A model generated the notes under the pieces. It searched no databases, was not told the origin of the DNA, and saw only the letters and a list, made by a program, of their open reading frames with translations. A DNA stretch of 64,000 bases from Piscinibacter sp. (GTDB taxonomy: Bacteria; Pseudomonadota; Gammaproteobacteria; Burkholderiales; Burkholderiaceae_C): assembly GCA_019635485.1 (NCBI GenBank), contig JAHBZL010000002.1, forward strand, positions 124,001-188,000. The letters are read 5' to 3'. The position numbers and the translations under genes are program-made. The first letter of the stretch is position 1; every line of letters begins with the position of its first letter. Positions 6,539 through 59,940 of this stretch are shown here, piece after piece.

Positions 6539-6772
6539 ATGTGCCTCGCCTTGCCCGCCCGTGTGGTGGAACTCCAAGCGCCGGACAACGCGATCGTCGA
6601 CCTCGGTGGCGTGCGCAAGACCGTCTCGGTCGCGCTGACGCCGGAGGCCGACGTCGGCGACTACGTGATCGTGCACGTCGGTCATGCGATCGGCCTGCTC
6701 GATGCGCAGGAGGCCGAGCGCACGCTCGCGCTGTTCGCCGAGCTGGCCGCCCAGCAGGAACGCACGGCATGA
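6539..6772 (+). CDS. hypC: Hydrogenase chaperone HypC
   Basis: General Fe(CN)2CO carrier that works with HypD. The 77-residue protein begins MCLALPARV; Cys2 is the essential cysteine. A central DLGGVRK stretch followed by VGDYVIVHVGHAIGLL is characteristic. It starts one base after the hypF stop and overlaps hypD by four bases (ATGA), so translation is probably coupled. It is clearly shorter than the HoxL paralogue at 592-915, the usual split between general and enzyme-specific HypC proteins. Confidence 0.95.
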   Translation: MCLALPARVVELQAPDNAIVDLGGVRKTVSVALTPEADVGDYVIVHVGHAIGLLDAQEAERTLALFAELAAQQERTA

Positions 6773-7908
6773 AGTACATCGACGAGTTCCGCGACGGCGC
6801 GGTGGCGCAGGGCCTGGCCCGGCGCATCGCCGCCGAGGCCGACCCGGCACGGCGCTACAGCTTCATGGAGTTCTGCGGCGGCCACACGCACGCCATCTCG
6901 CGCTACGGCATCGCCGAACTGCTGCCGGCCAACCTGCGCATGATCCACGGCCCCGGCTGCCCGGTCTGCGTGCTGCCGATCGGCCGCATCGACCAGGCCA
7001 TCGCGCTGGCACTGGAGCGCGGCGTCATCCTCTGCACCTACGGCGACGTGATGCGCGTGCCGGCCAGCCAATCCTTGTCGCTGATGCGCGCCAAGGCACG
7101 CGGCGCCGACATCCGCATGGTGTACTCCGCCGCCGACGCGCTGAAGCTGGCCCGCGAGCACGCCGACCGCGAGGTCGTGTTCCTCGCGATCGGCTTCGAG
7201 ACCACCACGCCGCCGACCGCGCTCGTGATCCGCCAGGCCGCGCAGGCATCGGTGGCCAACTTCAGCGTGCTGTGCAATCACGTGCTGACCCCCAGCGCGA
7301 TCACGCACATCCTCGAATCGCCCGAGGTGCGCCAGTACGGCACGGTGCCGATCGACGGCTTCGTCGGGCCCGCGCACGTGAGCATCGTGATCGGGTCGCG
7401 GCCGTACGAGCATTTCGCGGCCGAGTACCGCAAGCCGGTGGTGATCGCCGGCTTCGAGCCGCTGGACGTGATGCAGGCGATCCTGATGCTGGTGCGGCAG
7501 GTCAACACCGGGCGCGCGGAGGTCGAGAACGAGTTCACCCGCGCCGTCACGCGCGACGGCAACCGCGCCGCGCAGGCGATCGTCTCGGAGGTGTTCGAGT
7601 TGCGCTCGAGCTTCGAGTGGCGCGGCCTCGGCGAGGTACCGTACTCGGCGCTGAAGATCCGCCCGGCGTTCGAGCGCTTCGACGCCGAGAAGCGCTTCGG
7701 GCTCGACTACCGCAGCGTGCCGGACCACAAGCAGTGCGAGTGCGGCGCGATCCTGCGTGGTGTGAAGAAGCCGACCGACTGCAAGCTGTTCGGCACCGTC
7801 TGCACGCCAGAGAACCCGATGGGGTCGTGCATGGTGTCGTCAGAAGGCGCTTGCGCGGCGCACTACTCCTACGGGCGGTTCCGCGACATCCCGGTGGTGG
7901 CCGCATGA
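6769..7908 (+). CDS. hypD: HypD, Fe(CN)2CO assembly protein
   Basis: Iron-sulfur scaffold on which the iron receives its two cyanide groups from HypE and its CO. The 379-residue protein has all the expected motifs: FCGGHTHAISRYG near residue 30, GPGCPVCVLPIG near 60, GFETTTPPTA near 144, and a C-terminal set of cysteines (ECGAIL, TDCKLFGTVCTP, GSCMVSSEGAC) that bind the [4Fe-4S] cluster. The ATG overlaps the hypC stop. The stop overlaps a GGCCGCATGAAG repeat that reappears at the hypE start. Confidence 0.96.
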   Translation: MKYIDEFRDGAVAQGLARRIAAEADPARRYSFMEFCGGHTHAISRYGIAELLPANLRMIHGPGCPVCVLPIGRIDQAIALALERGVILCTYGDVMRVPASQSLSLMRAKARGADIRMVYSAADALKLAREHADREVVFLAIGFETTTPPTALVIRQAAQASVANFSVLCNHVLTPSAITHILESPEVRQYGTVPIDGFVGPAHVSIVIGSRPYEHFAAEYRKPVVIAGFEPLDVMQAILMLVRQVNTGRAEVENEFTRAVTRDGNRAAQAIVSEVFELRSSFEWRGLGEVPYSALKIRPAFERFDAEKRFGLDYRSVPDHKQCECGAILRGVKKPTDCKLFGTVCTPENPMGSCMVSSEGACAAHYSYGRFRDIPVVAA

Positions 7909-46547: not shown

Positions 46548-47000
46548 ATGGCCAGGCTGAACGTGAACGGCAAGGTGCGTGAGTTCGAGGCCGAGCCCGA
46601 CACGCCCCTGCTGTGGGTGCTGCGCGAACAGCTCGGGCTGACCGGCACCAAGTACGGCTGCGGCATCGCGCAGTGCGGCGCCTGCACCGTGCACGTGGAC
46701 GGCACGGCGACGCGCTCCTGCGTGCGCCCGCTGTCCACGCTGTCCGGCGACGAGAAGATCGTCACCATCGAGGGACTCTCGCCCGAGGGCGACCACCCAG
46801 TGCAGGTGGCCTGGGCCAAGCTCGACGTGCCGCAGTGCGGGTTCTGCCAGTGCGGCATGCTGATGGCCGCGGCCGCACTGCTGAAGGAGAAGCCGAAGCC
46901 GACCGATGCCGACATCGACGCGACGATCACCAACATCTGCCGCTGCGGCACCTACAACCGGGTGCGCGCGGCGATCAAGCTCGCGGCCTCGCAGGCCTGA
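46548..47000 (+). CDS. [2Fe-2S] subunit of a molybdenum hydroxylase (IorA-like)
   Basis: Electron-transfer subunit of a xanthine-oxidase-family enzyme. The 150-residue protein has a plant-ferredoxin [2Fe-2S] site ([18 protein letters not shown], with a later Cys in TRSC) and the helical second [2Fe-2S] domain ([17 protein letters not shown] and [15 protein letters not shown]). It has no signal peptide and is probably exported with the Tat-dependent catalytic subunit encoded 17 bases downstream. AGGAGATTCCGG lies just upstream of the start. First gene of the Sox-linked cluster. Confidence 0.93.
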
Positions 47001-47017
47001 GGCGAAGGAGCCGAACC

Positions 47018-49201
47018 ATGAGCGAAGCGCCCGCCGTCTCGCGCCGCGGCTTCCTCGGCGGCTCGGCCGCCGTCGCCGGCAGCCTCGTCGTCGGTTTCCC
47101 CGTGCCCGCCGCCCAGCCCTCCGCCATGTCGCAACAGAAGCTCGTTCCCGAGGTCAATGCCTGGGTCGTCGTGCAGCCCGACAACCGCGTGATCATCCGC
47201 ATTGCCCGTTCCGAGATGGGCCAGGGTTCGCTGACCGGGCTCGCGCAGCTCGTCGCCGAGGAGCTCGACTGCGACTGGAGCAAGGTGCGCACCGAGTACC
47301 CGACACCCGGCCAGAACCTGGCGCGCAACCGCGTCTGGGGCAACTTCTCCACCGGCGGCAGCCGCGGCATCCGCGAGTCGCACGACTACGTGCGCAAGGG
47401 TGGCGCCACCGCTCGGCTGATGCTGATCCAGGCCGCGGCCGAGCAGTGGAACGTGCCGGCGGCGGAATGCACGACGAACGCCGGCGTGATCACCCACGCG
47501 CCGTCCGGCCGCCAGACGACCTACGGCGCGATGGCGCCGGCCGCCGCAAAGCTGAAGCCGCCGGCCGACGTGAAGCTGAAGGATCCGAAGGACTGGAAGA
47601 TCGCCGGCAAGCCGCTGCCGCGCCTGGACACGCTGGACAAGCTGACCGGCGAGCAGATCTACGGCATGGACCTGAGCCTGCCGGGCATGCTCAACGCGGC
47701 GATCCGCGACTGCCCGGTGTTCGGCGGCAAGGTCCGGTCCGTCGACGCCGCGGCGGTGATGAATCGGCCGGGGGTCCGGAAGGTCGTGCGCGTCGGCGAC
47801 AGCGCCGTCGCGGTCGTGGCCGACACCTGGTGGCACGCGAAGACCGCACTCGACGCGCTGCCGATCGAGTGGGATGAAGGCGCGCACGCGCAGGCCAGCA
47901 GCGCGGCGACCGCGGCCGTGCTGAAGGCCGGCCTGGACGCGAGCGATGCGGTGGTCGGCAACACGGTGGGCGACGCGCGGGCCGCGCTCGCCGCGGCGGC
48001 CCGGCGCATCGAGGCGGTGTACTCGTACCCGCACCAGAACCACGCGACGATGGAGACGATGAACGCGACGGCGCGCTGGACGCCCGAGCGCTGCGAGGTC
48101 TGGACACCGACGCAGAACGGCGAGGCGGCGCTGGCCGCCACCGCCGAAGCGGCCGGCCTGAAGCCGCAGCAGTGCGAGGTCTACAAGCTGCACCTGGGCG
48201 GCGGCTTCGGCCGGCGCGGCGCGGTGCACGACTGGGTGCGCCAGGCGGTGCTGATCGCGCGCGAGCTGCCGGGCACGCCGGTCAAGCTGATCTGGTCGCG
48301 CGAGGAGGACATGACGCACGGCCGCTACCACCCGGTGACGATGTGCAAGCTGAGCGCCGGCCTCGACGCGCAGGGCAATGTCAGCGCGCTGCACATGCGC
48401 ATCTCCGGGCAGTCGATCCTGGCCGGCGTGTTCCCGCAGAACATCCGCGACGGCCGGGATCCGGTGGTGTTCCAGGGCCTGAACGCGCCGGGGCCGGAGG
48501 CCTCGATCGGCTACGGCGTGCCGAACCTGCTGGTCGACCACGCGATGCGCAACCCGCACGTGCCGCCGGGGTTCTGGCGCGGCGTGAACCTGAACCAGAA
48601 CACGCTCTACCTCGAGTGCTTCATCGACGAGATCGCCCACGCGACGAAGCAGGACCCGCTCGCGCTGCGCCGCAAGCTGATGGCGGGGCACCCGAAGCAC
48701 CTGGCCGTGCTCGAGGCGGTGGCGAAGAAGGTCGGCTGGGACCGGCCCGCGCCCGCCGGCGTGGCCCGCGGCCTCGCGCAGACGATGGGTTTCGGCAGCT
48801 ACGTGGCCGCCTGCGCGGAAGTGTCCGTCAGCGCCGAGGGCACGCTGAAGATCCACCGCATCGTCGCCGCGACCGACTGCGGCCACGCCGTCAACCCGCA
48901 GCAGATCGAGGCGCAGGTCGAAGGCTCGTTCGTCTACGGCCTGTCGGCCGCGCTGTGGGGCGAATGCACGGTCGAGAAGGGCCGCATCGTGCAGACCAAC
49001 TTCGACACCTACCCGGTGATGAAGATGGACATGATGCCCAAGGTCGAGACCATCGTGATGCCCAGCGGCGGCTTCTGGGGCGGCGTCGGCGAGCCGACCA
49101 TCGCGGTGGCGGCGCCGGCCGTGCTGAACGCGATCTTCGCCGCCACCGGCCAGCGCATCCGCGAGCTGCCGCTGCGGCACCACAGCCTGAAGAAGGCGTG
49201 A
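47018..49201 (+). CDS. Molybdopterin-binding catalytic subunit (IorB-like, Tat-exported)
   Basis: Molybdenum hydroxylase catalytic subunit related to isoquinoline 1-oxidoreductase beta and periplasmic aldehyde dehydrogenases. The 727-residue protein has a Tat signal ([20 protein letters not shown]), the duplicated aldehyde/xanthine dehydrogenase domains ([55 protein letters not shown]) and the active-site base Glu692 in [13 protein letters not shown]. The substrate is not known. It overlaps the next gene, a SoxX-like cytochrome, by four bases, so it is translated together with Sox components, which is unusual. Confidence 0.93.
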
Positions 49202-49653
49202 GCCGATGGCGGGTGGCGGTGCGGAGCCCGGCCGGTCTCGCGGCCGCCGTGCTGATCGGCAGCGGCGCCTGGGCCGCCCCGCCCACGTGGGTGGGCGACA
49301 CGCTGCCCGCACCGCTGACCGCCACGCCCGGCGACGCGGCACGCGGCCGGGCGATCGTCGCCAACCGCCAGCTCGGCCTGTGCCTGCTGTGCCACCCGGC
49401 GCCGATCCCCGAGCAGCCGCTGCAGGGCAACCTCGCCCCCGACCTGGCGGGCAGCGGCAGCCGCTGGAGCGCGGCGCAGCTGCGCGCAAGGCTGGTCGAC
49501 GCACGGCGCCTCGATCCGCGCACGACCATGCCGCCCTTCCACGCGACCGATGGCCTGGTGCAGGTCGGCGCGGCCTGGCAGGGCCGGCCGCTGCTCGACG
49601 CGCAGCAGATCGAGGACGTGGTCGCCTACCTGCTCACGCTGCGCTCGCCTTGA
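49198..49653 (+). CDS. soxX: SoxX-like monohaem cytochrome c
   Basis: Periplasmic haem protein; in the Sox system SoxX pairs with SoxA to attach sulfur compounds to SoxY. The 151-residue protein starts at GTG 49198 (GTGA overlap with the molybdenum enzyme), has a signal peptide ending AWA, a haem site CLLCH at residues 62-66 and the axial Met111 in [12 protein letters not shown], with the SoxX-type block [30 protein letters not shown]. The match to SoxX is good, and a soxA lies at 55662-56465. An alternative is a dedicated electron acceptor of the IorAB-like enzyme. Confidence 0.8.
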
Positions 49654-49687
49654 TCGACGCGGCACGCGTGGCGCATCGGCCCCAGCG

Positions 49688-50125
49688 ATGAATCCGACCC
49701 GCCGCGCCCTCCTGCTGGCCCCGGCCGCGCTGGTCGTGCTGCGCCCGGCACATGCGACGCCGCTGCAGATGGAAGTCGCGATCGCCGCATTCACCGGCGG
49801 CGCGCCGCTGCGCGACGGCCGCGTGACCCTCGAGATCGCGGCCCTGGTCGAGAACGGCAACACCGTGCCCGTCAGCGTCAGCGTCGACAGCCCGATGAGC
49901 GCGGCCGACCATGTGCAGGCGATCGCCCTGTTCACCGCGGGCAACCCGCAGCCGCCGGTGGCCGTGTTCCAGCTCGGCCCGCGCAGTGGCCGCGCGCGGG
50001 TCGACACGCGCATGCGGCTGGCCACCTCGCAGACCGTCGTCGCGGTCGCCCGCCTGTCCGACGGCAGCCACTGGCGGCGCGCCGTCGAGGTCATCGTCAC
50101 GCTGGCGGCGTGCGTGGAGAGCTGA
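49688..50125 (+). CDS. SoxY-like carrier protein with atypical AACVES arm
   Basis: Periplasmic swinging-arm carrier. The 145-residue protein has a twin-arginine-like leader (NPTRRALLLAPAALVVL), an immunoglobulin-like SoxY body with GGAPLRDGRVTLEIAALVENGNTVPV and VSVDSPM, and ends VTLAACVES. Real SoxY ends GGCGG with the carrier Cys near the terminus; here a single Cys142 is followed by Val-Glu-Ser. I recall an annotation class called SoxY-related AACIE arm proteins that fits, unverified. The Cys is kept, so a covalently bound intermediate is expected, but the arm differs, suggesting a different cargo or partner. Followed immediately by soxZ. Confidence 0.85.
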   Translation: MNPTRRALLLAPAALVVLRPAHATPLQMEVAIAAFTGGAPLRDGRVTLEIAALVENGNTVPVSVSVDSPMSAADHVQAIALFTAGNPQPPVAVFQLGPRSGRARVDTRMRLATSQTVVAVARLSDGSHWRRAVEVIVTLAACVES

Positions 50126-50452
50126 ATGGCCGTCCGCGCGATCGTCACCCTGCCGCCGGCCGTCGCGCCGGGCGAGATCGTCGAGCTGCGCACGCTGATC
50201 AGCCACCCGATGGAGACCGGCTACCGGCGCGACGCCGACGGCCGGCCCCTGCCGCGCGACCTGATTCGCCGCTTCAGCTGCCACTGCGACGGCGAGCTGG
50301 TGTTCGCCGCCGAGCTGCACGCGGCCATCGCGGCGAACCCCTACCTGGCGTTCCCGCTGCGCGTCGGCGACGGGCCAGGGCTGCTCGAGTTCCGCTGGGA
50401 GGGCGACAACGGCTTCGCCCACCAGGAGCAGCGCACGCTCAAGCGGCGCTGA
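50126..50452 (+). CDS. soxZ: SoxZ-like protein
   Basis: Partner of SoxY in the YZ carrier heterodimer. The 108-residue protein begins MAVRAIVTLPPAVAPGEIVELRTLISHPMETGYRRD (read in parts: GEIVELRTLISHPMETG), the signature of SoxZ, followed by FSCHCDGELVFAAELH and a GPGLLEFRWEGDNG stretch. No signal peptide, as usual: SoxZ is exported bound to the Tat-borne SoxY. The ATG follows the soxY-like stop directly, so the two are translated in equal amounts. Confidence 0.92.
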   Translation: MAVRAIVTLPPAVAPGEIVELRTLISHPMETGYRRDADGRPLPRDLIRRFSCHCDGELVFAAELHAAIAANPYLAFPLRVGDGPGLLEFRWEGDNGFAHQEQRTLKRR

Positions 50453-50552
50453 GCGCCGGCTCGGGGTCGGCCAGCGGCATCCACAACACCACTTCGGTGC
50501 CGCCACCCGGCCAGCTCGCGATGTCGACGCGGCCGCCCTGCAGTTCGGTGAT
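50439..50552 (-). pseudogene. C-terminal remnant of a sensor histidine kinase
   Basis: On the minus strand this frame reads ITELQGGRVDIASWPGGGTE followed by VVLWMPLADPEPALSAA and a stop. That is the closing part of a histidine-kinase ATPase domain (the HGGRVxxxSxPGxGTxxxxWLPL-type end). It overlaps the last 14 bases of soxZ. Upstream of it on the same strand the similarity stops in an AT-rich join (50555-50571, CACTTTTATCATTTGAA) unlike the surrounding GC-rich DNA, and a different, complete kinase ends at 50610. Best explained as the leftover of a kinase gene deleted or replaced. Confidence 0.75.
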
Positions 50553-50609
50553 CTCACTTTTATCATTTGAAGGCCAAGGCATTCCGTCACGCTTTGCCGC
50601 CACAGCGGC

Positions 50610-53078
50610 TCAGAGCAGCTCGTCGGCCGGCTGGGTGTCGGCGAAGCCGCGCAGGGGCAGGTGGATGTGGAACACGCTGCCGCCGCCGGCGGCGTTCTCG
50701 GCGTGGACGCGCCCGCCGTGCGCCATCACGATCTTCCGGCAGATCGCGAGGCCGAGCCCGGTGCCGCCGGAGCCGTCCTTGGTCTGGGTCGATTGCACGA
50801 AGGCCTCGAAGATGGTCTCCAGCTCCGCGGGCGGGATGCCCGGGCCGCGATCGCGCACGGCGATGTGCGCCTCGCCGTCGACAGTCGCCTCGGCCAGCAC
50901 GTCGATCGCGTGGCCGCGGGCGCAGAACTTGATGGCGTTGGCGAGGATGTTGCGGATCGCCTGCTGGAAACGCAGCGGGTCGACCTTGGCCACCAGCGGG
51001 GCCTCGCCCAGGCGCGCGTCGATGCGCAGCTGTCGCGGGGCGAGCAGCGGGTCGAGTTCCCGGATCACCTCGCGCAGCAGCGCGCGCAGGTCGGTGCGCT
51101 CGAGGTGGAAGGTGCCGACCGTGCTCTCGATCTTGGCCACGTCCAGCAGGTCGTTGACCAGTGCCAGCATGCGCCGGCCCGAGGCGTGGATGTCGGTGAA
51201 CATGGCGGCCAGCTTCTCGTGCGCCCGGCCGCGCACCATGCCGAGTTCGGAGAAGCCGATGATCGACTGCAGCGGCGTGCGCAACTCGTGGCTGATGTTG
51301 GCGATGAACTCGGACTTCGCACGCGAGGCCTCCTCCGCCGCGTCGCGCGCCTCCAGCGTCGCGCGTTCGGCGTGGCGCAGCTCGGTGACATCCATGAAGG
51401 CCGCCAGGATGCCGCTGGCCCGGCCGTCCTCGCCGGGCACCGCCACCTTGCTGATCAGCAGGTCGGCGCGCGTGCCGTCGGCCCGCACGAAGCCGGCCTC
51501 GTAGCGGCGGCTGCCGCCGAGTGCCAGCAGCTCGCGGTCGACCTCGCCGTGCCGCTGCGCGTCCTCGGGCGTCTGGAAGTCGCGCGCGGCGCGCCCGACG
51601 ACGTCCCGGCGCAGGCGCCCGGCGAACTGTTCCCAGGCCCGATTGACGGTGACGTAGCAGCCGGCGGCATCGAGCATCGCGACCGGGATCGGGACCATCG
51701 CGAGCAGCAACTCGTTGAAGTCCAGCTGGGCCTGCAGCTGCTGCTGCGCCACCCAGCGGTCGGTGATGTCGACGGCGCTGCCGGCGAAGCCGAGCAGGCG
51801 CCCCTGCTCGCGCAGCGGCGTCACGCTGATGTCGAACCGCCGGCCACCCGGGCTGCCCTGCGCATCGCGCAGCCGGGCCTGCACGCTGCGCGGCGCGCCG
51901 CCGTCGTCGTCGTTGAACAGCTGCGCGAGGCCGGCCGCGTCGGAAGGCAGGGCCAGCGAGGCGAACGTGCGGCCGATCGGGTCGGTCGCGCCGTCCCAGC
52001 GGGCATTGACGAAGGTCAGCACGCCGCTTGCGTCGGTGCGGAACAGCAGCTCGTGCACGCTGCCGACGATCAGGCTCAGCTCGCGCTCGCTGCGCGCCAC
52101 CTGCTCGCGGGCCGCCTCGCGTGCGCGCAGGCTGCGCGCCGCGATCGTCGAGGCCAGCAGCACGAACAGCGCGACGACGGCGCCGCCGCTCAGCAACGTG
52201 ATCTCGTCGACATGGCGCTGCGCCACCACGTCGGCCCGCGCGCGGTCGACCAGCAGCACCAGCGGCAGGCGGCGCGCAGCCCGGTAGGCCACCACCTGGT
52301 CGTGTCCGGCCGGGCCGGGCCCGACGAACCCGTCGTGGTCGCGCGCGGCGAGCCGCTCGCGCCAGCGCGCGGCGTCGGGGATCGGGCGGCCCGGCACGGT
52401 GCGACGCGAGTCGGTGGCCGCCAGCACTTGGCCGTCGTAGGACATCAGCACACCGAGCGTCGACGCGTCGTTCAGCACCAGGCCCATGTGGCTGGACCAG
52501 CCTTCGGCATGCAACAGCGCGACCAGCAGCAGCGCCCGGCCATCGCGGCCGCTCGCCCGGCGCAGCAGCGGCAGTGTGCCGACCCCCGCGGGCACGGTCG
52601 CCGCGGCCCCCGGCACCAGGTCGGCGAAGCCGCGCGCCGCCAGGTAGGGACCCAGGCGGTCGGCACCCGGCGCCGGGAGCGGTCCCAGCCGCGCCAGGTC
52701 GACCTGCGCGCCCACGTCGCGCGGCGCGCTGCTGGCCAGCACACGGCCCTGCTCGTCCAGCACCGCGAGCGCGCGCAGCTGCGGCAGGCTCGACAGCTCG
52801 GTCGCGAAGGCCTTGGCCGCGAGCGGCTCGGCGCCGCCGGCCGCGGCCGCCGCGGCCACGCTGCTCAGCGCCAGCCGCGTGCTCTCGACGCTGCGGGTCA
52901 CGTGGTCCTCGAGCACGCGCGCGAACAGTTCGTTGCGCTCGAGCTGCTGTTCGACCTGGCGCTCGCGCTCCTCGTGGATCTCGGCCAGCAGCGCCAGCAT
53001 GATCGCCAGCGCCAGCGCGATGCCCACCACCAGCACCCAGCGGCTGGCGGCGGGTGCGACGGGGCGCGCCTGGTGCAT
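50610..53078 (-). CDS. Membrane sensor histidine kinase with extracellular and PAS domains
   Basis: Sensor kinase, partner of a binding protein encoded upstream. The 822-residue protein has a membrane helix at about 13-33, a periplasmic sensor domain of about 240 residues, a second helix near 290-310, two PAS domains (about 330-450 and 455-580, with WVAQQQLQAQLDF linker), the HisKA site His597 in SHELRTPLQ and an HATPase domain with NILANAIKF and GSGGTGLGLAI. No receiver domain is attached. ATG 53078 is 5 bases after the binding-protein stop; an in-frame start at 53186 would overlap that gene. Probably phosphorylates the receiver proteins encoded at 54308-55665. Confidence 0.88.
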   Translation of the reverse strand: MHQARPVAPAASRWVLVVGIALALAIMLALLAEIHEERERQVEQQLERNELFARVLEDHVTRSVESTRLALSSVAAAAAAGGAEPLAAKAFATELSSLPQLRALAVLDEQGRVLASSAPRDVGAQVDLARLGPLPAPGADRLGPYLAARGFADLVPGAAATVPAGVGTLPLLRRASGRDGRALLLVALLHAEGWSSHMGLVLNDASTLGVLMSYDGQVLAATDSRRTVPGRPIPDAARWRERLAARDHDGFVGPGPAGHDQVVAYRAARRLPLVLLVDRARADVVAQRHVDEITLLSGGAVVALFVLLASTIAARSLRAREAAREQVARSERELSLIVGSVHELLFRTDASGVLTFVNARWDGATDPIGRTFASLALPSDAAGLAQLFNDDDGGAPRSVQARLRDAQGSPGGRRFDISVTPLREQGRLLGFAGSAVDITDRWVAQQQLQAQLDFNELLLAMVPIPVAMLDAAGCYVTVNRAWEQFAGRLRRDVVGRAARDFQTPEDAQRHGEVDRELLALGGSRRYEAGFVRADGTRADLLISKVAVPGEDGRASGILAAFMDVTELRHAERATLEARDAAEEASRAKSEFIANISHELRTPLQSIIGFSELGMVRGRAHEKLAAMFTDIHASGRRMLALVNDLLDVAKIESTVGTFHLERTDLRALLREVIRELDPLLAPRQLRIDARLGEAPLVAKVDPLRFQQAIRNILANAIKFCARGHAIDVLAEATVDGEAHIAVRDRGPGIPPAELETIFEAFVQSTQTKDGSGGTGLGLAICRKIVMAHGGRVHAENAAGGGSVFHIHLPLRGFADTQPADELL

Positions 53079-53083
53079 GGGCC

Positions 53084-53872
53084 TCAGCGGGCGACGATCG
53101 CCCCGAGGCCGTGGCGTCGCGCGGCGGCATCGAGGCGACCGTCGCGCTGGATGCGCTGCACGAAGCCGTCCATCGCCGCGAGCCACTCGTCGTCGCCGGG
53201 GTTCACGGCATAGGCATAGGGCAGCGGATGGAACGGCGCCGGCGGCTCGATCAGCGCAGCCCAGTCGGCGTTGTCGAGCAGGCGGCGGCTGTACGGGTAG
53301 TCGGTCATGAACACGTCGACCCGTCCAGCCTCGAGCTCGCGCTCGCGCGTGGCCGGCGGACGGACCACGACGAGGGTGCCGCGCTTCAGCGCCGCCGCCA
53401 TCACCGGCTCCATGAAGGTTCCCGCCTGCACCGCGACCTGCACGCCGGTCTGGTCGATGTCGGCCCAGGTCTTCACGACGCGGCTGCCCTTGCTCGCGAT
53501 CGCGACGATGTCGCTGCGCAAATAGGGCCGCGTGAAGCGCAGGTGCTGCTGGCGCTGCGGCAGCAGCGCGACGGCGAACATCGCGACGTCGCAGCGCCCG
53601 CCCTTCAGGTCATCGATCAGGGTCGCGAAGGACGAGTCCACGTACTCGATCCGCGCACCGAGGTCGTGTCCGAGTTCGGCCGACAGGTCGATGTCGATGC
53701 CGTTGAGGCGGCCGGTGCGCGGGTCGCGCAGGCTGATGCCGTAGTAGTCGGGCCAGATGCACACGCGCACCTGACCGGTGGCCTGGATGCGGTCCAGCAC
53801 CGGACCGGCGGTTGCGGCCAGCGGGGACACCAAGGAGGCCGCCAGGGCGGCCGCACGCAACAATTGCTTCAC
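53084..53872 (-). CDS. Family 3 periplasmic solute-binding protein
   Basis: Periplasmic receptor of the amino-acid-binding (SBP_bac_3) family. The 262-residue protein has a signal peptide (MKQLLRAAALAASLVSPLAATA) and the family blocks VRVCIWPDYYGISLRDPRTGRLNGIDIDLS, DLKGGRCDVAMFAVALLPQRQ, VAVQAGTFMEPVM and RVDVFMTDYPYSRRLL. No ABC permease or ATPase lies nearby; it sits in an operon directly before a sensor kinase, so it probably senses a ligand for that kinase and does not feed a transporter. It overlaps the preceding small gene by four bases. Confidence 0.88.
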   Translation of the reverse strand: MKQLLRAAALAASLVSPLAATAGPVLDRIQATGQVRVCIWPDYYGISLRDPRTGRLNGIDIDLSAELGHDLGARIEYVDSSFATLIDDLKGGRCDVAMFAVALLPQRQQHLRFTRPYLRSDIVAIASKGSRVVKTWADIDQTGVQVAVQAGTFMEPVMAAALKRGTLVVVRPPATRERELEAGRVDVFMTDYPYSRRLLDNADWAALIEPPAPFHPLPYAYAVNPGDDEWLAAMDGFVQRIQRDGRLDAAARRHGLGAIVAR

Positions 53873-54192
53873 GAGATCGATCCTCCGGGCGGCCTCTCCA
53901 GCGCGCGCGGGCCGCGCACGAGATCGGCGAAGCTGGGCTGGACGCGGTTGACCTTCTCGCGCAGCACGATGAACTGCTCGGCGTGCGCCAGGAACAGGTC
54001 GGTCAGCCGCGGATCGAAGGCGCGGCCGCGCTCGCTGCGCCCGTTGCGCTCGCGGTGCATGCGCGCGAAGTCGGCGACGAAGCGCTCCATCTGCGCGCCC
54101 GCCGCCGGTTCGAAGGACAGGCCGCCCTCGCCCAGGATCAGGGGGGCCGGGGTGCCGGGAGGATCGGCGGCAACGGACAACATCGGGGGCAT
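53869..54192 (-). CDS. Small protein of unknown function, first gene of the sensor operon
   Basis: Not recognised. The 107-residue product has a proline-rich start (to about residue 20) and a helical core (QMERFVADFARMHRERNG, DPRLTDLFLAHAEQFIVLRE) with several His and Arg but no Cys pairs. No signal peptide or membrane helix. Start ATG 54192 is assumed; ATG 54183 (MLSVAAD) is possible. It overlaps the binding-protein gene by four bases and lies just downstream of a Fur-like palindrome, so it is expressed with the sensor genes. Confidence 0.65.
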   Translation of the reverse strand: MPPMLSVAADPPGTPAPLILGEGGLSFEPAAGAQMERFVADFARMHRERNGRSERGRAFDPRLTDLFLAHAEQFIVLREKVNRVQPSFADLVRGPRALERPPGGSIS

Positions 54193-54221
54193 GCGGAACT
54201 CAGGGGCTCGGCTCGGAGCTC

Positions 54222-54235
54222 ATAATGATCATTAT
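54222..54235. promoter_or_regulatory. Fur-box-like palindrome in the divergent promoter
   Basis: ATAATGATCATTAT is a perfect 14-bp palindrome inside a 20-base AT-only-rich island (54222-54241) in DNA of about 70% GC. It carries three overlapping NATWAT-type hexamers (ATAATG, ATCATT, ATTATC), the pattern of Fur/Zur-family boxes. It lies between the leftward sensor operon (start 54192) and the rightward HTH-receiver/receiver-Hpt/soxA operon (start 54308), 29 and 72 bases from the two starts. Metal control of the locus is inferred. Confidence 0.55.
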
Positions 54236-54307
54236 TATCATCTTGTGTGGCCTCACCGGGGGAGAGCAAGCGTGCGAAGCCGGCAAATCTTGGCAGAATC
54301 GACCGGG

Positions 54308-54952
54308 ATGAAACAAGCCCGTTCGCAGCCCGCCTCGCCCACCGGCGACTTCAGCACACTCGAAGTGGCACGCATGCTCGGCATGGCCGTGCGCTCCGTG
54401 CAGCTGATGGTCGATCGCGGCGAGCTGTCGGCATGGAAGACACCGGGCGGACACCGGCGCATCGCGGCCGAGTCCGTCCAGCGCTGGCTGGACCGGCGCG
54501 CCAACGCGGCATCGGCCGCGGCCGCGCCGGCCACGGAAGCACCGCCTCCCGCGGCGCGCAGCGGCGGCACGGCGACGGCGCTGCTGATCGAGGACTCCAA
54601 GCACTACCAGAACCTGATCGGCCTGATCGTGCGGCAGCAGTTCCCGGAACTGACGCTGCAGATCGCCGACGACGGCATCTCGGGCCTCGCGATGGCCGGG
54701 CAGCTGCGTCCGCAGGTGCTGATCGTCGACATCCTGCTGCCCGGCATCGACGGGGCCACGCTGATCACCAGCCTGCGCTCGCACCGCCAGTTCGACGGCA
54801 CCCAGCTGATCGTCGTGACCTCGCTGGACGACGCCGACCGCGACCCGTACCGCTTCGCGCTCGAGGGCCTGCCGGTGGTGCACAAATCGCAGCTGGTCGC
54901 CGAACTGCCGCAGCGCCTGCGCGACTGCCTCGCGGCGGCCGGCCTGCGCTGA
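54308..54952 (+). CDS. MerR/excisionase-type HTH fused to a response-regulator receiver
   Basis: DNA-binding response regulator with reversed domain order. The 214-residue protein has an N-terminal helix-turn-helix of the excisionase/MerR type (FSTLEVARMLGMAVRSVQLMVDRGEL then WKTPGGHRRI, residues 15-60, quoted in parts), an Ala/Pro linker (65-88) and a C-terminal receiver (LLIEDSKHY; phosphoacceptor Asp141 in LIVDILLPGIDG; Thr in VVTSLDD; Lys in VHKSQL). Probably the DNA-binding output of the neighbouring kinase. Eleven bases separate it from the receiver-Hpt gene. Confidence 0.9.
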   Translation: MKQARSQPASPTGDFSTLEVARMLGMAVRSVQLMVDRGELSAWKTPGGHRRIAAESVQRWLDRRANAASAAAAPATEAPPPAARSGGTATALLIEDSKHYQNLIGLIVRQQFPELTLQIADDGISGLAMAGQLRPQVLIVDILLPGIDGATLITSLRSHRQFDGTQLIVVTSLDDADRDPYRFALEGLPVVHKSQLVAELPQRLRDCLAAAGLR

Positions 54953-54963
54953 CGGGGCCGGGC

Positions 54964-55665
54964 ATGGCCGCGCGGGTCGTGCTGGTCGAGGACGATCCGA
55001 CCATCCGACGCTTCTTCGCCCTGGCGGTCGAGGAGCTGCCGCTGGACCTGGTCGAATGCGCCAGCCTGGCACAGGGCCGGGAGGCGCTCGCCTCGGCACC
55101 CACGGCGCTGCTCGTCACCGACCTCATGCTGCCGGATGGCCACGGCGTCGATCTGCTCGAGTCGGTGGCCGCGCAGCCGGCCCCGCGGCCGCGCTGCATC
55201 GTCTTCAGCGCCGGCGTCAACGCCGCGCTGCGGCAGCGGCTGGAGGCGCTGGGCAGCTGGCGCATCCTGGACAAGCCGGTCGCGATCGGCGTGCTGCTCG
55301 AGGCGGTCGAGTCCGCGCTCGCCGGTGGCCCATCGGTCGCCGAGGCGAAGGCGGCCGACCCCGCGGGCGACCCGGTTCAGCGTCACTTCGGCGGCGATGC
55401 GGCGCTGTACACGGCGTTCCGCGATTCGGCCCTGCAGCAGTTCGCGGCCGACATCGCCGAAGGCGAGCGCTGCGCGGCGGCGGCCGACCTGCCCGCGCTG
55501 CGGCGCCTCGCCCACAGCCTGAAGTCGGTGTTGCTGTTGCTTGGCGACGACGCCGGTTCGGAACAGGCCCGCGCGCTGGAACGCCAGGCGGCCGGCGGCG
55601 CGCCGGACAGCGTCGCCGCCTGGCCGGCGCTGCGCGACCGGCTGGCGGGCTGGGCAACGCGATGA
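54964..55665 (+). CDS. Receiver-Hpt phosphorelay protein
   Basis: Signal relay without DNA-binding domain. The 233-residue protein has an N-terminal receiver (LVEDDP; phosphoacceptor Asp53 in VTDLMLPDG; Lys in ILDKP) and a C-terminal histidine phosphotransfer domain (HFGGDAALYTAFRDSALQQF, His184 in LRRLAHSLKSV). It could pass phosphate between the sensor kinase and the HTH-receiver protein. Its stop overlaps the soxA start by four bases (ATGA), a strong sign that signalling and SoxA production are linked. Confidence 0.9.
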   Translation: MAARVVLVEDDPTIRRFFALAVEELPLDLVECASLAQGREALASAPTALLVTDLMLPDGHGVDLLESVAAQPAPRPRCIVFSAGVNAALRQRLEALGSWRILDKPVAIGVLLEAVESALAGGPSVAEAKAADPAGDPVQRHFGGDAALYTAFRDSALQQFAADIAEGERCAAAADLPALRRLAHSLKSVLLLLGDDAGSEQARALERQAAGGAPDSVAAWPALRDRLAGWATR

Positions 55666-56465
55666 TCCCGTCGGGGCGCGCGGCCCTGCTCGCTGCGGCG
55701 CTCATGGTCGGCTGCGCGGCCGAACCGGCACCGGCGCCAACCGCGCTGTCGGCGCCCCCTGCCGCAGCGCGCCGCTCCGGCTTCCAGGACATGGGCCCCA
55801 CGCTGCAGGCCCTGCAGCGCGACGACACGCAGAACCCGGGCCTGCTGTGGGTGCTCGAGGGCGAATCGCTGTGGCAGGCGCCGGCCGGCCCGCGCGGGCA
55901 GCGCTGCACCGACTGTCATGCCGGCGAACCGTCGCACACGCTGCGTGGCGTTGCCCTGCGCTACCCACGCTACGACAGCGCGCTCGGCCGGCCGATCACC
56001 CTCGCGCAGCGCATCGCGCAATGCCGGGCGCGCCAGGGCGTCGTTGCGCCGGCGCCGGACAGCCGGGACCTGCTCGCGCTGGAAGCCTTCGTCGCACGGC
56101 AGTCGCGCGGCCTGCCGATCGCGCCGGACGACGACCCGCGCCTCGCTCCGGCGGCCGAGCGGGGCCGCGCCTTGTTCGAACGCCGGCTCGGCGCCCTCAA
56201 CCTGTCGTGCGCGCAATGCCACGATCATCTGGCGGGCGGACGCCTCGGCGGCAGCCCGATCCCGCAGGGCCATCCGACCGGCTACCCGATCTACCGGCTG
56301 GAGTGGCAGGGGCTCGGCTCGCTGCAGCGCCGCCTGCGCGGCTGCGTCACCGGTGTACGAGCTGAACCCTGGCCCGCCGGCGCGCCGGAGTGGGTCGAGC
56401 TCGAGCTGTACCTGATGCGGCGCGCCGCCGGGATGGCGCTGGAAACGCCGGCCGTGCGGCCGTGA
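55662..56465 (+). CDS. soxA: SoxA-type dihaem cytochrome c
   Basis: Catalytic cytochrome of SoxAX, which joins a thiol-type substrate to the SoxY cysteine. The 267-residue protein has the SoxA opening NPGLLWVLEGESLW, haem sites CTDCH (82-86) and CAQCH (183-187), the block GGSPIPQGHPTGYPIYRLEW and the Cys228 haem ligand in LRGCVTGVRAEPW. Two haems are kept, as in the dihaem SoxA type. A lipoprotein-like Cys18 follows the signal (LMVGC). It is separated from soxX/soxY/soxZ by the regulatory genes but is translationally coupled to them through the receiver-Hpt gene. Confidence 0.93.
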   Translation: MIPSGRAALLAAALMVGCAAEPAPAPTALSAPPAAARRSGFQDMGPTLQALQRDDTQNPGLLWVLEGESLWQAPAGPRGQRCTDCHAGEPSHTLRGVALRYPRYDSALGRPITLAQRIAQCRARQGVVAPAPDSRDLLALEAFVARQSRGLPIAPDDDPRLAPAAERGRALFERRLGALNLSCAQCHDHLAGGRLGGSPIPQGHPTGYPIYRLEWQGLGSLQRRLRGCVTGVRAEPWPAGAPEWVELELYLMRRAAGMALETPAVRP

Positions 56466-58238: not shown

Positions 58239-59852
58239 TCAGCCCGCGCGGGGCCCCGTCGGCCGGTACGGGCCGGACGGGCGGTGCAGCTGCTTGCACG
58301 GGTCCCCGCCCTGCGGCTTCTTCGGCTCGAAGCTGGCGTTGAAGACCGGGAACTCGGGAATCGCGGCCGGCAGCAGGCGCACGAAGCTGCCGTCCAGCGG
58401 CGAATCGCGGTGGTATTCGATCAGGAAGTCGACCCAGTCGGTCACCTTGACGAACTCGATGATGTGCGGCTGCACCGGCGGGCGCGCCGGGTCGGGGTTG
58501 ACGTCCAGGTAGAACGGGCTGCGCCAGTCCCAGACGCCGCGCAGCAGCGGGTCCGGCAGGAAGATGTTCATCGCCAGCTGGTTGGACGTGAAGTTCCAGG
58601 TGATGCCGGTCCCGTCGGCCACCCAGGGCTGATCCGCGTCGCCGTAGACCTTGATGCCCTTCAGCGCGTCCTGCAGCGCCCGGCAGGCCGGATGCACCGG
58701 GTGCGGCCGGAAGTCGAACTTCAGCAGCGCAGACGCGAAGCTGTACAGGTCCGTCAGCTGGTCCGGCGTCTCCAGCGCGAAGCCGGCCTCGGTGTCGTAC
58801 TGCTGGGCCAGGATGATCGCGTTCATGATGCGCTGGACCACCACCTGCCGGTCGCCCGGGTTCGGGGCGCTGCGCAGTGCGGCCAGCAGGGCGTCGGCCA
58901 GGTCGTCGACGCACTCCGCGACGGCGTGCATGCGCGACAGCCGCACCACGCAGCCGGCCGTCGGGTGGTTGCCCTTGGCCTTCAGCACCGCATGGTTGCC
59001 CTCCGCGAACCACTGCGAGAGCTGCTGCGCCGTCGCCGTGCCCTGCTGGCGCAGCCGGTCGAACACGGCCGGGTACGGTTGACCGGCGGTGAAGAAGTTG
59101 TAGTTCGGGTAGCCGGTGGCGTAGTCGGCGTACGGGGCGACCGTGTGCAGCACCTCGGCCGACATGTTGAAGCAGTTGTCGAAGTGGATCACCGCCAGCT
59201 TCGGCACGCCGGCGTCCAGCGCCGCCTTGAGTGCGGCGCCGAGGCCCCAGGTCGACAGCGGCATGTGGTTGACCGGCAGCAGCGGCGAGCCCTGCGGCAG
59301 CAGCGGAGAGCCCTGGGGCAGCAGGGGCGACCCCTGCGGCAGCAGCGGCGAGCCCTGCGGCAGCACCGGGGCACCCGCGCCGGCACTGATGCGCCATTCG
59401 AAGCGGCCGTTCTCGGTCAGCGTGGCCGCGCTCAGCTGGGTGCGGTCGATCTCGGGCAGGTAACCCGCGCCGTGCCCTTCCAGCGCCAGCACGATCGCGG
59501 CGGTCGGCCGGCTGCGGTGCGCGTGGCGCAGGAACCCGGCCAGGTTGCGCGGGTGGGCCATGTCCTGCTTCCAGCGCGAGGTGACGACCATGCCCGCCGG
59601 CTTGCCGGCCTCGATCTCGATCAGCCAGGTGTCGTCGTCGACGCGGTCGACCAGTGCCGCCACGTGCACGCCGCTTTCGGCCACCTTCAGCAGGCCCTGC
59701 ACCAGCGGGTGCTGGGCCAGCGTCTGCGAACTGCCGTCGGGGTAGGTGCTGAGCACCGGGTCGGTCCCGAACGGGGCGTAGACCGCCAGCAGCACGCTGT
59801 CCGTGCGCTGCGGTTCTCCGGATTTCTCGGGCAGCAGCCGGGGCAGGTTCAT
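58239..59852 (-). CDS. Caspase-like (C11/clostripain-type) peptidase with heptad repeat
   Basis: Probable cytoplasmic cysteine peptidase of the clostripain/caspase fold. The 537-residue protein has the two expected catalytic elements in order: His127 in ALEGHGAGYLP and Cys227 in IHFDNCFNMSAEV, each after a hydrophobic strand. Between them is an insertion built from four LPQGSPL repeats (about residues 164-192). The C-terminal 250 residues have no motif that I know; the last 20 are Pro/Arg-rich. No signal peptide. ATG 59852 follows AGGAGAAGAAGAC. Divergent from a TPR regulator. Activity and target are unknown. Confidence 0.75.
   Translation of the reverse strand: MNLPRLLPEKSGEPQRTDSVLLAVYAPFGTDPVLSTYPDGSSQTLAQHPLVQGLLKVAESGVHVAALVDRVDDDTWLIEIEAGKPAGMVVTSRWKQDMAHPRNLAGFLRHAHRSRPTAAIVLALEGHGAGYLPEIDRTQLSAATLTENGRFEWRISAGAGAPVLPQGSPLLPQGSPLLPQGSPLLPQGSPLLPVNHMPLSTWGLGAALKAALDAGVPKLAVIHFDNCFNMSAEVLHTVAPYADYATGYPNYNFFTAGQPYPAVFDRLRQQGTATAQQLSQWFAEGNHAVLKAKGNHPTAGCVVRLSRMHAVAECVDDLADALLAALRSAPNPGDRQVVVQRIMNAIILAQQYDTEAGFALETPDQLTDLYSFASALLKFDFRPHPVHPACRALQDALKGIKVYGDADQPWVADGTGITWNFTSNQLAMNIFLPDPLLRGVWDWRSPFYLDVNPDPARPPVQPHIIEFVKVTDWVDFLIEYHRDSPLDGSFVRLLPAAIPEFPVFNASFEPKKPQGGDPCKQLHRPSGPYRPTGPRAG
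59275..59358 (-). repeat. Four tandem 21-bp repeats coding LPQGSPL
   Basis: Four in-frame units of 21 bp (59275-59295, 59296-59316, 59317-59337, 59338-59358) with one to four differences each, followed by a partial fifth. They encode a Pro/Gly-rich heptapeptide inside the caspase-like protein, between the two catalytic residues. Units of this kind change copy number by slippage, so strain variation is likely. Confidence 0.9.
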
Positions 59853-59940
59853 GTCTTCTTCTCCTGGTTGTCCTTGCCCGCAACGGTAACCCCCGGCACG
59901 TCGCATTCACAAGCATCTCGTCCGTCGGTGGGATGGCGAC

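Follow-up and report, generated by a model that had tools for sequence, protein, structure and literature searches.

Gene content of the locus

The window analyzed here is a 64,000-nt stretch of Piscinibacter sp. (GCA_019635485.1, contig JAHBZL010000002.1, positions 124,001 to 188,000). At 46548-56465, numbered from window position 1, it carries genes in the order iorA-iorB-soxX-soxY-soxZ, followed by an insertion of sensor and relay genes and then soxA. The components named in the original prediction, an IorAB-like enzyme, SoxX, a SoxY-like arm protein, SoxZ and SoxA, are all present as described.

The molybdenum enzyme is encoded on the plus strand by iorA (46548..47000), a small subunit of 150 residues with two [2Fe-2S] domains (Pfam Fer2 and Fer2_2), and iorB (47018..49201), a large subunit of 727 residues with a Tat signal (TIGR01409). 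The name isoquinoline 1-oxidoreductase applies to IorAB by analogy, as a name only. Pfam MoCoBD_1/2 matches together with a glutamate place IorB in the xanthine oxidase (XO) family of molybdenum hydroxylases. This residue, Glu692 in GGVGEP, which we take from the family motif to be the catalytic glutamate, is kept in all 111 aligned cassette IorB sequences, nearly all of which belong to one clade. Trp687, five residues before Glu692, is found in 110/110 IorB proteins of the cassette type, and the 15 compared relatives outside the clade all have proline. Arg61, Arg103, Arg461 and Arg511 are further cassette-type residues that could bind an anionic group.

The GTG start codon of soxX (49198..49653, plus strand; TIGR04485, 77.2 bits, cut-off 61) overlaps the iorB stop codon in the sequence GTGA, which makes the proposed translational coupling plausible. 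SoxX is a mono-heme cytochrome c whose CxxCH motif and Met111 are kept in 108/108 aligned sequences. Its expected partner SoxA (55662..56465, plus strand; TIGR04484, 202.6 bits, cut-off 110) is a di-heme cytochrome with two CxxCH motifs; the canonical SoxA of the same genome has one. Cys228 of SoxA, presumably a heme ligand, is kept in 103 of 106 sequences, with a gap at this position in the other three, and the cysteine aligns with that of the solved SoxA chain 1h31 (E 1.8e-43). By alignment, the ligands looked for in a SoxXA pair (CxxCH and Met in SoxX; CxxCH hemes and Cys in SoxA) thus appear to be intact, in keeping with the SoxAX part of the original prediction.

The SoxY-like carrier (49688..50125, plus strand) ends in LAACVES, and its cysteine, the predicted carrier residue Cys142, is invariant in alignments of 19 and of 14 sequences. 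The protein passes TIGR04487, the "SoxY-related AACIE arm protein" (196.9 bits, cut-off 172), but fails TIGR04488, the canonical thiosulfate-oxidizing class (90.4 bits, cut-off 125), and has no GGCGG end: an Ala-Ala-Cys-aliphatic-acidic arm (AACVES) takes its place. An end of the form xxC[LIVTW][ED] occurs in 106/106 loci with local SoxX and SoxA (103 distinct). SoxX, SoxA and the AACIE-type SoxY all pass the cut-offs of their curated models; soxZ (50126..50452, plus strand) is above the Pfam SoxZ threshold (87.1 bits) and just under the NCBIfam TIGR04490 cut-off (72.8 vs 76 bits).

Between soxZ and soxA lie, on the minus strand, a sensor histidine kinase with PAS, HisKA and HATPase domains (50610..53075; 76% to Piscinibacter defluvii), a periplasmic solute-binding protein of family 3 (53084..53872; Pfam SBP_bac_3; 85% to Piscinibacter), both lineage-specific insertions, and a small ORF that overlaps the solute-binding gene (53869..54192; no Pfam match, partial match in Piscinibacter). 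They are followed on the plus strand by a regulator with an excisionase/MerR-type HTH and a receiver domain (54308..54952; Pfam HTH_17, Response_reg) and a receiver-Hpt relay protein (54964..55665; Pfam Response_reg, Hpt). The locus had been described as devoted mostly to its own sensing and relay; these genes do occupy about half of its span, but among the relatives compared the same insertion was found in Piscinibacter defluvii only. The kinase query matched at 10 of 80 and 4 of 40 related loci, the former including Piscinibacter, and the matches outside Piscinibacter are distant (about 29-38%). We therefore reject the sensor genes as a general part of the system.

Conservation of the cassette beside canonical sox genes

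Related loci were compared in two sets, the best 80 relatives kept from named genomes and 40 further loci. Among the best 80, the locus contains soxX (80/80), soxZ (80/80), soxA (79/80), iorB (77/80) and iorA (68/80). Where iorB (three loci) or iorA (12 loci) is missing, the locus starts at a contig end, and the single locus without soxA is a Piscinibacter one whose soxA was found further on. Neither SoxB nor SoxD gave a match in the fetched flanks of these 80. In the second set iorB is present at 38/40 loci, at one merely as a fragment, and a minimal form, iorAB-soxYZ alone, makes up 13/40; all 13 genomes with this form have SoxA over the cut-off elsewhere, and three of them (G169, G039 and G016) have no SoxB over the cut-off. 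Many Burkholderiales and Alphaproteobacteria are hosts, including, among the best 80 loci, Bradyrhizobium, Microvirga, Massilia and Polaromonas, with Polaromonas sp. JS666 as one example; six genomes with the cassette measure 1.7-2.1 Mb. Across eight genes compared between the window and Piscinibacter (two genomes), dN/dS is 0.23-0.44. The predicted co-occurrence of IorAB-like enzymes with this SoxY class is thus borne out, and sequence comparison indicates that the conserved unit consists of the enzyme and carrier genes and not the regulators. Overall, the cassette gives the impression of a genuine functional unit alongside the usual sulfur pathway.

Beyond the original prediction, a cluster of flavoproteins of the flavocytochrome c sulfide dehydrogenase (FCSD) type is represented at 45/81 loci (three flavoproteins were checked against Pfam) and a small c-type cytochrome at 21/81. 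About half of the loci, the window locus among them, have no FccAB-type genes.

SoxB and SoxCD are absent from the locus, as had been noted, but not from the genome. On another contig (C2), profile searches place soxB (869.5 bits), soxC (583.6 bits), soxX, soxA, soxY and soxZ above their cut-offs; where soxD would be expected, a protein with two stretches of cytochrome c is encoded. The two scores lead us to reject a genome without SoxB and SoxCD. The one match of the genome to a SoxF-like flavocytochrome lies near this operon, not at the window locus. A complete sox operon elsewhere, together with unexpressed cassette genes, had been named in advance as one outcome that would speak against the prediction; the operon, one half of that pair, is there. 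A system operating without SoxB is accordingly not what this genome has, although it is seen elsewhere: 6/40 and 4/12 cassette genomes have no SoxB over the cut-off, counts that include several draft assemblies, one genome (G093) without iorAB beside its SoxY and one (G293) with soxXYZA but without iorAB in the flanks. On these counts we reject a dependence of the cassette on SoxB.

A tentative carrier-bound route for organic sulfur

What might the cassette do? We observe that the cassette is conserved, that its IorB proteins form a clade devoted largely to it, that the cofactor ligands are intact, that dN/dS between two genomes is low and that several cassette genomes yielded no SoxB. The reading that we prefer, tentatively, is an accessory periplasmic Sox module apart from the thiosulfate-oxidizing operon, in which a thiol organosulfur compound is loaded, its carbon oxidized by IorAB and its sulfur cleared. 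SoxXA would first couple a thiol or sulfane-sulfur compound, most likely an organic thiol, oxidatively onto Cys142 of the AACxE-type SoxYZ. The SoxY arm would then offer the bound group to IorAB, which would hydroxylate a carbon next to the sulfur with water; the electrons would leave IorAB by way of the two [2Fe-2S] clusters and reach c-type cytochromes, either SoxX or, at loci that encode it, the small FccA-like one. The sulfur of the carrier would finally leave as persulfide or sulfide and be oxidized either by the FccAB-like dehydrogenase that about half of all cassettes encode or by canonical Sox proteins encoded outside the cassette. The full periplasmic pathway, in which SoxXA loads organosulfur on SoxYZ, a dedicated IorAB oxidizes the carbon of the tethered cargo and a flavocytochrome strips the sulfur, we regard as possible and hold more loosely.

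XO-family enzymes hydroxylate C-H bonds, and action on carbon is chemically reasonable for a member of this family; the organic-thiol loading, the oxidation at carbon, the hand-over between proteins and the substrate are what we infer. Several observations argue against this model: FccAB-type genes are missing as described, the fetched flanks of four cassette-clade IorB proteins contain no SoxY, and at one locus with soxXYZA (L063) the flanks contain no iorAB. The co-occurrence with SoxB is also compatible with a part in the metabolism of inorganic thiosulfate, and in the Starkeya novella cluster discussed below expression was very low and SoxAX and SoxYZ went undetected (PMC3797975).

The alternative that survives best, although we consider it unlikely, is that IorAB substitutes for SoxCD and oxidizes sulfane sulfur on the AACxE SoxY, which would make the module a further route for thiosulfate, polysulfide or sulfide, dependent on the main operon's SoxB to release sulfate. 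In the order sample SoxB and the cassette co-occur more than expected by chance (23/25 against 162/374), and SoxC over the cut-off is lacking in 13/40 genomes, eight of which have SoxB. SoxXA and FCSD-type partners, moreover, handle inorganic sulfur. However, SoxC is also present in 26/34 SoxB genomes, some cassette genomes lack SoxB over the cut-off, the SoxY arm has no GGCGG, and we know of no XO-family enzyme that oxidizes sulfur. Bradyrhizobium soxY2, probably the same kind of gene as the cassette soxY, is moreover described in PMC5748708 as dispensable for thiosulfate oxidation, which, if it is this gene, also argues against the substitution.

Somewhat less probably, IorAB could be a conventional periplasmic oxidase of aldehydes or N-heterocycles, with SoxXA, SoxYZ and FccAB acting after export to deliver or mend the sulfido ligand of its molybdenum. 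The XO family requires a Mo=S ligand, the minimal units are iorAB-soxYZ, and among solved structures an aldehyde dehydrogenase subunit comes closest to IorB. Cofactor sulfuration is, however, generally placed in the cytoplasm, ahead of Tat export, and no AACIE-type SoxY was found in the fetched flanks (short for two) of 20 other IorB homologues, of which 16 lie outside the cassette clade, so related enzymes seem to manage without it. The same structural relative fits SoxYZ as an aldehyde or C1 carrier, with a thiohemiacetal on Cys142 oxidized by IorAB, and so do the fused SoxYZ-like genes that accompany PQQ alcohol, methanol and formate dehydrogenases (PMC11237559, PMC12997753); this we consider improbable, as the linked SoxXA with its intact Cys ligand and the FCSD-type genes would be left unexplained. 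A redundant sox duplicate without present function, which the authors of PMC3797975 suggest for the barely expressed S. novella cluster, is very improbable given gene order and residues conserved over Alpha- and Betaproteobacteria, presence in the 1.7-2.1 Mb genomes noted above and the low dN/dS.

If the full pathway of organosulfur loading, carbon oxidation and sulfur removal is real, common soil and freshwater bacteria would have a carrier-bound route for organic sulfur. A carrier that hands organic sulfur to a molybdenum hydroxylase would link the cycling of organic sulfur in soil and fresh water to that of inorganic sulfur. The cassette is widespread and conserved in order and catalytic residues, yet in the open-licence literature we found no substrate assigned to it.

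Relation to known systems

The closest solved chain to IorB is PDB 8gy3_C, the large subunit of an aldehyde dehydrogenase, with a match that covers residues 2-724 (E 1.7e-74). It has Pro where IorB has Trp687 and lacks counterparts to the stretch around Arg103; to our knowledge it has no SoxYZ partner. TIGR04487, above whose cut-off the window SoxY scores, names the protein only, and its table states no cassette or function. The quinoprotein dehydrogenase-associated SoxYZ-like carrier (TIGR04557) is similar in placing a SoxYZ-type carrier beside a periplasmic carbon-compound dehydrogenase, but it is a fused protein with a PQQ enzyme, and the window SoxY and SoxZ score far below its cut-off. 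With canonical SoxXAYZBCD the cassette shares SoxX, SoxA, SoxY and SoxZ homologues with heme ligands and a carrier cysteine; it differs in AACVES vs GGCGG, in the absence of SoxB and SoxCD from the locus and in a molybdenum enzyme of another family.

In the open-licence literature, no paper was found on an AACIE SoxY, on soxYZ and soxXA combined with isoquinoline 1-oxidoreductase or with xanthine dehydrogenase, or on soxY and soxA alongside a molybdenum hydroxylase. A survey of SoxY dropped sequences without the GGC motif (PMC11237559) and thereby probably left out the AACIE class. In SAR324, a flavocytochrome c is flanked by low-identity SoxY and SoxZ with no further sox subunits, and an isoquinoline 1-oxidoreductase is reported separately from these genes (PMC4782131).

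The nearest published relative is the second sox cluster of Starkeya novella (2013), soxX2Y2Z2A2F2 with an XO-family molybdenum enzyme (Snov_1975-1982), in which SoxB and SoxCD are missing and a full sox operon lies elsewhere (PMC3797975). It is the single expression study that we found for this kind of cassette: the cluster was barely expressed in the cultures tested, with one flavocytochrome subunit at a low level (PMC3797975). Going by the description of the genes in that paper, the two are of the same gene kind: the window, too, has soxX, soxY, soxZ and soxA with an XO-family molybdenum enzyme, and neither soxB nor soxCD lies in the cluster. It differs in having no SoxF-like or other flavocytochrome genes and in carrying sensor and relay genes between soxZ and soxA.

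Gene content and conservation of the cassette

The locus at 46548-56465 comprises ten genes, which were searched against protein families, and one small ORF. It opens with iorA, encoding two [2Fe-2S] domains, followed by iorB, a xanthine-oxidase (XO)-family molybdenum subunit with a Tat signal. Directly next comes soxX, its GTG start codon overlapping the stop codon of iorB; soxY and soxZ follow in that order. An insertion between soxZ and the distal soxA contains, in order, a kinase gene, the gene for a solute-binding protein, the small ORF and the genes for the HTH-receiver and receiver-Hpt proteins. Curated family models place the SoxY in TIGR04487 (SoxY-related AACIE arm protein, cut-off 172 bits) and not in canonical SoxY. 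The top matches of SoxA are solved SoxA chains, and the Cys acting as haem ligand in SoxA is aligned with theirs. Beyond the locus, the window holds a 555-aa ORF of the clostripain family (Peptidase_C11; 58239-59906, minus strand) with about four tandem copies of the seven-residue unit LPQGSPL.

The grouping of the cassette genes exceeds chance, and the association of an IorAB-like enzyme with TIGR04487-type SoxY, central to the original prediction, is conserved in other genomes. A profile from 14 SoxY proteins recovered at least 481 relatives in named genomes; the 80 best of these were examined together with up to 8 kb of flanking sequence. Among these best 80 of at least 481, soxX and soxZ occur in 80/80 loci, soxA in 79/80, iorB in 77/80 and iorA in 68/80; the 3 loci without iorB and the 12 without iorA start at a contig end, and the sole locus without soxA is from Piscinibacter, where soxA lies further downstream. 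About 5 kb separate soxX from soxY in one locus (L086). As these 80 loci are the closest by SoxY, this set favours a good result. The second set derives from a sample of 399 genomes of the order, in which 205 gave at least one match with E no higher than 0.001, and consists of all 25 places above the curated cut-off, the window excepted, and 15 hand-picked below it. Here iorB is present in 38/40 loci (in L055 as a fragment only), soxX in 26/40 and soxA in 25/40; the 15 loci without soxA are a short contig (L068), a locus without iorAB (L071) and 13 iorAB-soxYZ loci. In L063, soxXYZA is present and iorAB is absent from the flanks. Queries with SoxB and SoxD gave no match in the flanks of either set (80 and 40 loci). 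In a phylum sample, 15/398 genomes lie above the TIGR04487 cut-off. Two loci carry additional copies: iorB is duplicated next to the cassette in L060 (9234-14137), and a second iorAB pair, cut off by the contig end, adjoins it in L042 (1-12546).

Carrier arm and IorB clade

Both sets, which overlap slightly, were pooled into 123 SoxY loci with 120 distinct SoxY; of the three repeated pairs, two are apparently one contig taken twice. All 106 loci with local SoxX and SoxA end in xxC[LIVTW][ED]. The 15 loci without either have AACLE (5), SACID or SACLD (2), or Gly directly after the Cys (8, including L071, which has no cassette); in the other 2 only SoxX is in view. L071 aside, the Gly-type arms are confined to one IorB clade of seven rows, and may thus stem from a single event. 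SoxA is found above cut-off elsewhere in 14/14 genomes (the 13 with iorAB-soxYZ loci and G093), so that SoxXA could load the carrier there too. The window genome also has a weak SoxY-profile match (51 bits, G000:C3:71259-71558) inside a longer reading frame, which might encode a quinoprotein-type carrier with SoxY- and SoxZ-like parts fused.

In a midpoint-rooted IorB tree built by a quick method from 79 of 131 collected rows, 58/59 cassette rows group together, along with four rows without nearby SoxY. This 62-row branch has 88% SH-aLRT, below the starred level, and suggests that cassette IorB is largely a dedicated enzyme clade. The exception, L204, belongs to another lineage, where it is closest to L191, an IorB that the window genome has outside the cassette; it adjoins another soxYZ pair, with a SACLDGG arm (6765-7400; G143 contig C51), possibly a second origin of the IorAB-SoxYZ pairing.

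Twenty-one positions, Arg61, 103, 461 and 511 among them, discriminate 110 cassette IorB rows (L204 excluded) from 15 others (L187 and the in-clade L202, L203, L205 and L206 excluded). At position 687, five residues ahead of Glu692, Trp occurs in 110/110 cassette rows and Pro in 15/15 others. Across all 20 non-cassette rows the counts are 16 Pro and 4 Trp; since the 15 compared rows all have Pro, the four Trp rows are among the five excluded. The nearest solved chain, 8gy3_C, has Pro aligned opposite Trp687.

Canonical Sox genes and neighbouring functions

The original prediction described a system without SoxB or SoxCD, which holds for the locus and not for the genome: contig C2 carries soxB, soxC, soxX, soxA, soxY and soxZ above cut-off and, in the place of soxD, a gene whose product contains two cytochrome c stretches, assigned by position and eye. 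The canonical SoxA there (L003, 8659-9465) has one CxxCH versus two in the cassette SoxA, so the two seem to differ in haem number. SoxB occurs in 23/25 genomes above the TIGR04487 cut-off versus 162/374 others (Fisher p ~1e-6, overstated since the genomes are related). With the 15 genomes below the cut-off added, drafts included, SoxB is above cut-off in 34/40 genomes and SoxC in 27; neither is in 5/40 (G169, G039, G100, G016 and G210), with draft assemblies as a caveat. Among named genomes, 8/12 have SoxB. The cassette hence accompanies the Sox pathway, yet SoxB is not always present, draft assemblies again being a caveat.

ORF clustering of the window with the best 80 of at least 481 loci found a flavoprotein in 45/81 and a small c-type cytochrome in 21/81. 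For the flavoprotein gene, the usual place in Alphaproteobacteria is between iorB and soxX, and in Massilia, Duganella and Noviherbaspirillum it is 3' of soxA; in L103 the gene precedes iorA. Three flavoproteins examined by Pfam are the flavin subunit of flavocytochrome c sulfide dehydrogenase (FCSD). The only FCSD-type flavoprotein of the window genome is on contig C2, near the canonical sox operon.

Sensing and relay genes had also been counted as part of the system. Among the compared loci the same insertion recurs only in Piscinibacter defluvii, with an extra kinase-like stretch and with soxA and a phosphofructokinase-like gene retained at the far end; the remaining loci of both sets have at most distant kinases nearby. 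Within the insertion, the HTH-receiver and receiver-Hpt proteins (54308-55665), beside a kinase without a Pfam receiver, look like a multi-step phosphorelay whose output protein has an excisionase-type DNA-binding domain. The small ORF at 53869-54192 overlaps the solute-binding gene, has no Pfam match and is partly conserved in P. defluvii.

Possible function and published relatives

Three observations speak for a real function of the cassette: low dN/dS (0.23-0.44 over eight genes, window versus Piscinibacter, one genome pair), intact cofactor ligands in alignments, and its occurrence in 1.7-2.1 Mb genomes. XO-family enzymes hydroxylate carbon, sulfide is oxidised by FCSD, and SoxXA couples sulfur compounds to its SoxY partner; given these chemistries, an organic thiol would fit all parts best as cargo of the carrier. 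If methanethiol were bound, for instance, hydroxylation of its methyl group would yield free formaldehyde, and the arm would be left carrying a persulfide. In an alternative and less likely reading, IorAB would oxidise SoxY-bound sulfane sulfur in place of SoxCD.

Cassettes of this kind are already in print; for their breadth, clade structure and residue pattern we found no report in the open-licence literature searched. Each of seven Bradyrhizobium genomes has an AACIE SoxY, and in 6/7 there is also a SoxY match with a low score and the canonical extent. In Bradyrhizobium diazoefficiens, which has soxY1 and soxY2, thiosulfate oxidation is reported to require only soxY1 (PMC5748708); soxY2 is probably the AACIE gene. 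For the second sox cluster of Starkeya novella, the study describes very low expression, with SoxAX and SoxYZ undetected in the proteome and one flavocytochrome subunit at low level, and its authors consider that the cluster might be functionless or important under other conditions (PMC3797975). By that paper's description, the S. novella cluster has the same parts as the cassette and, within the cluster, SoxB and SoxCD are missing.
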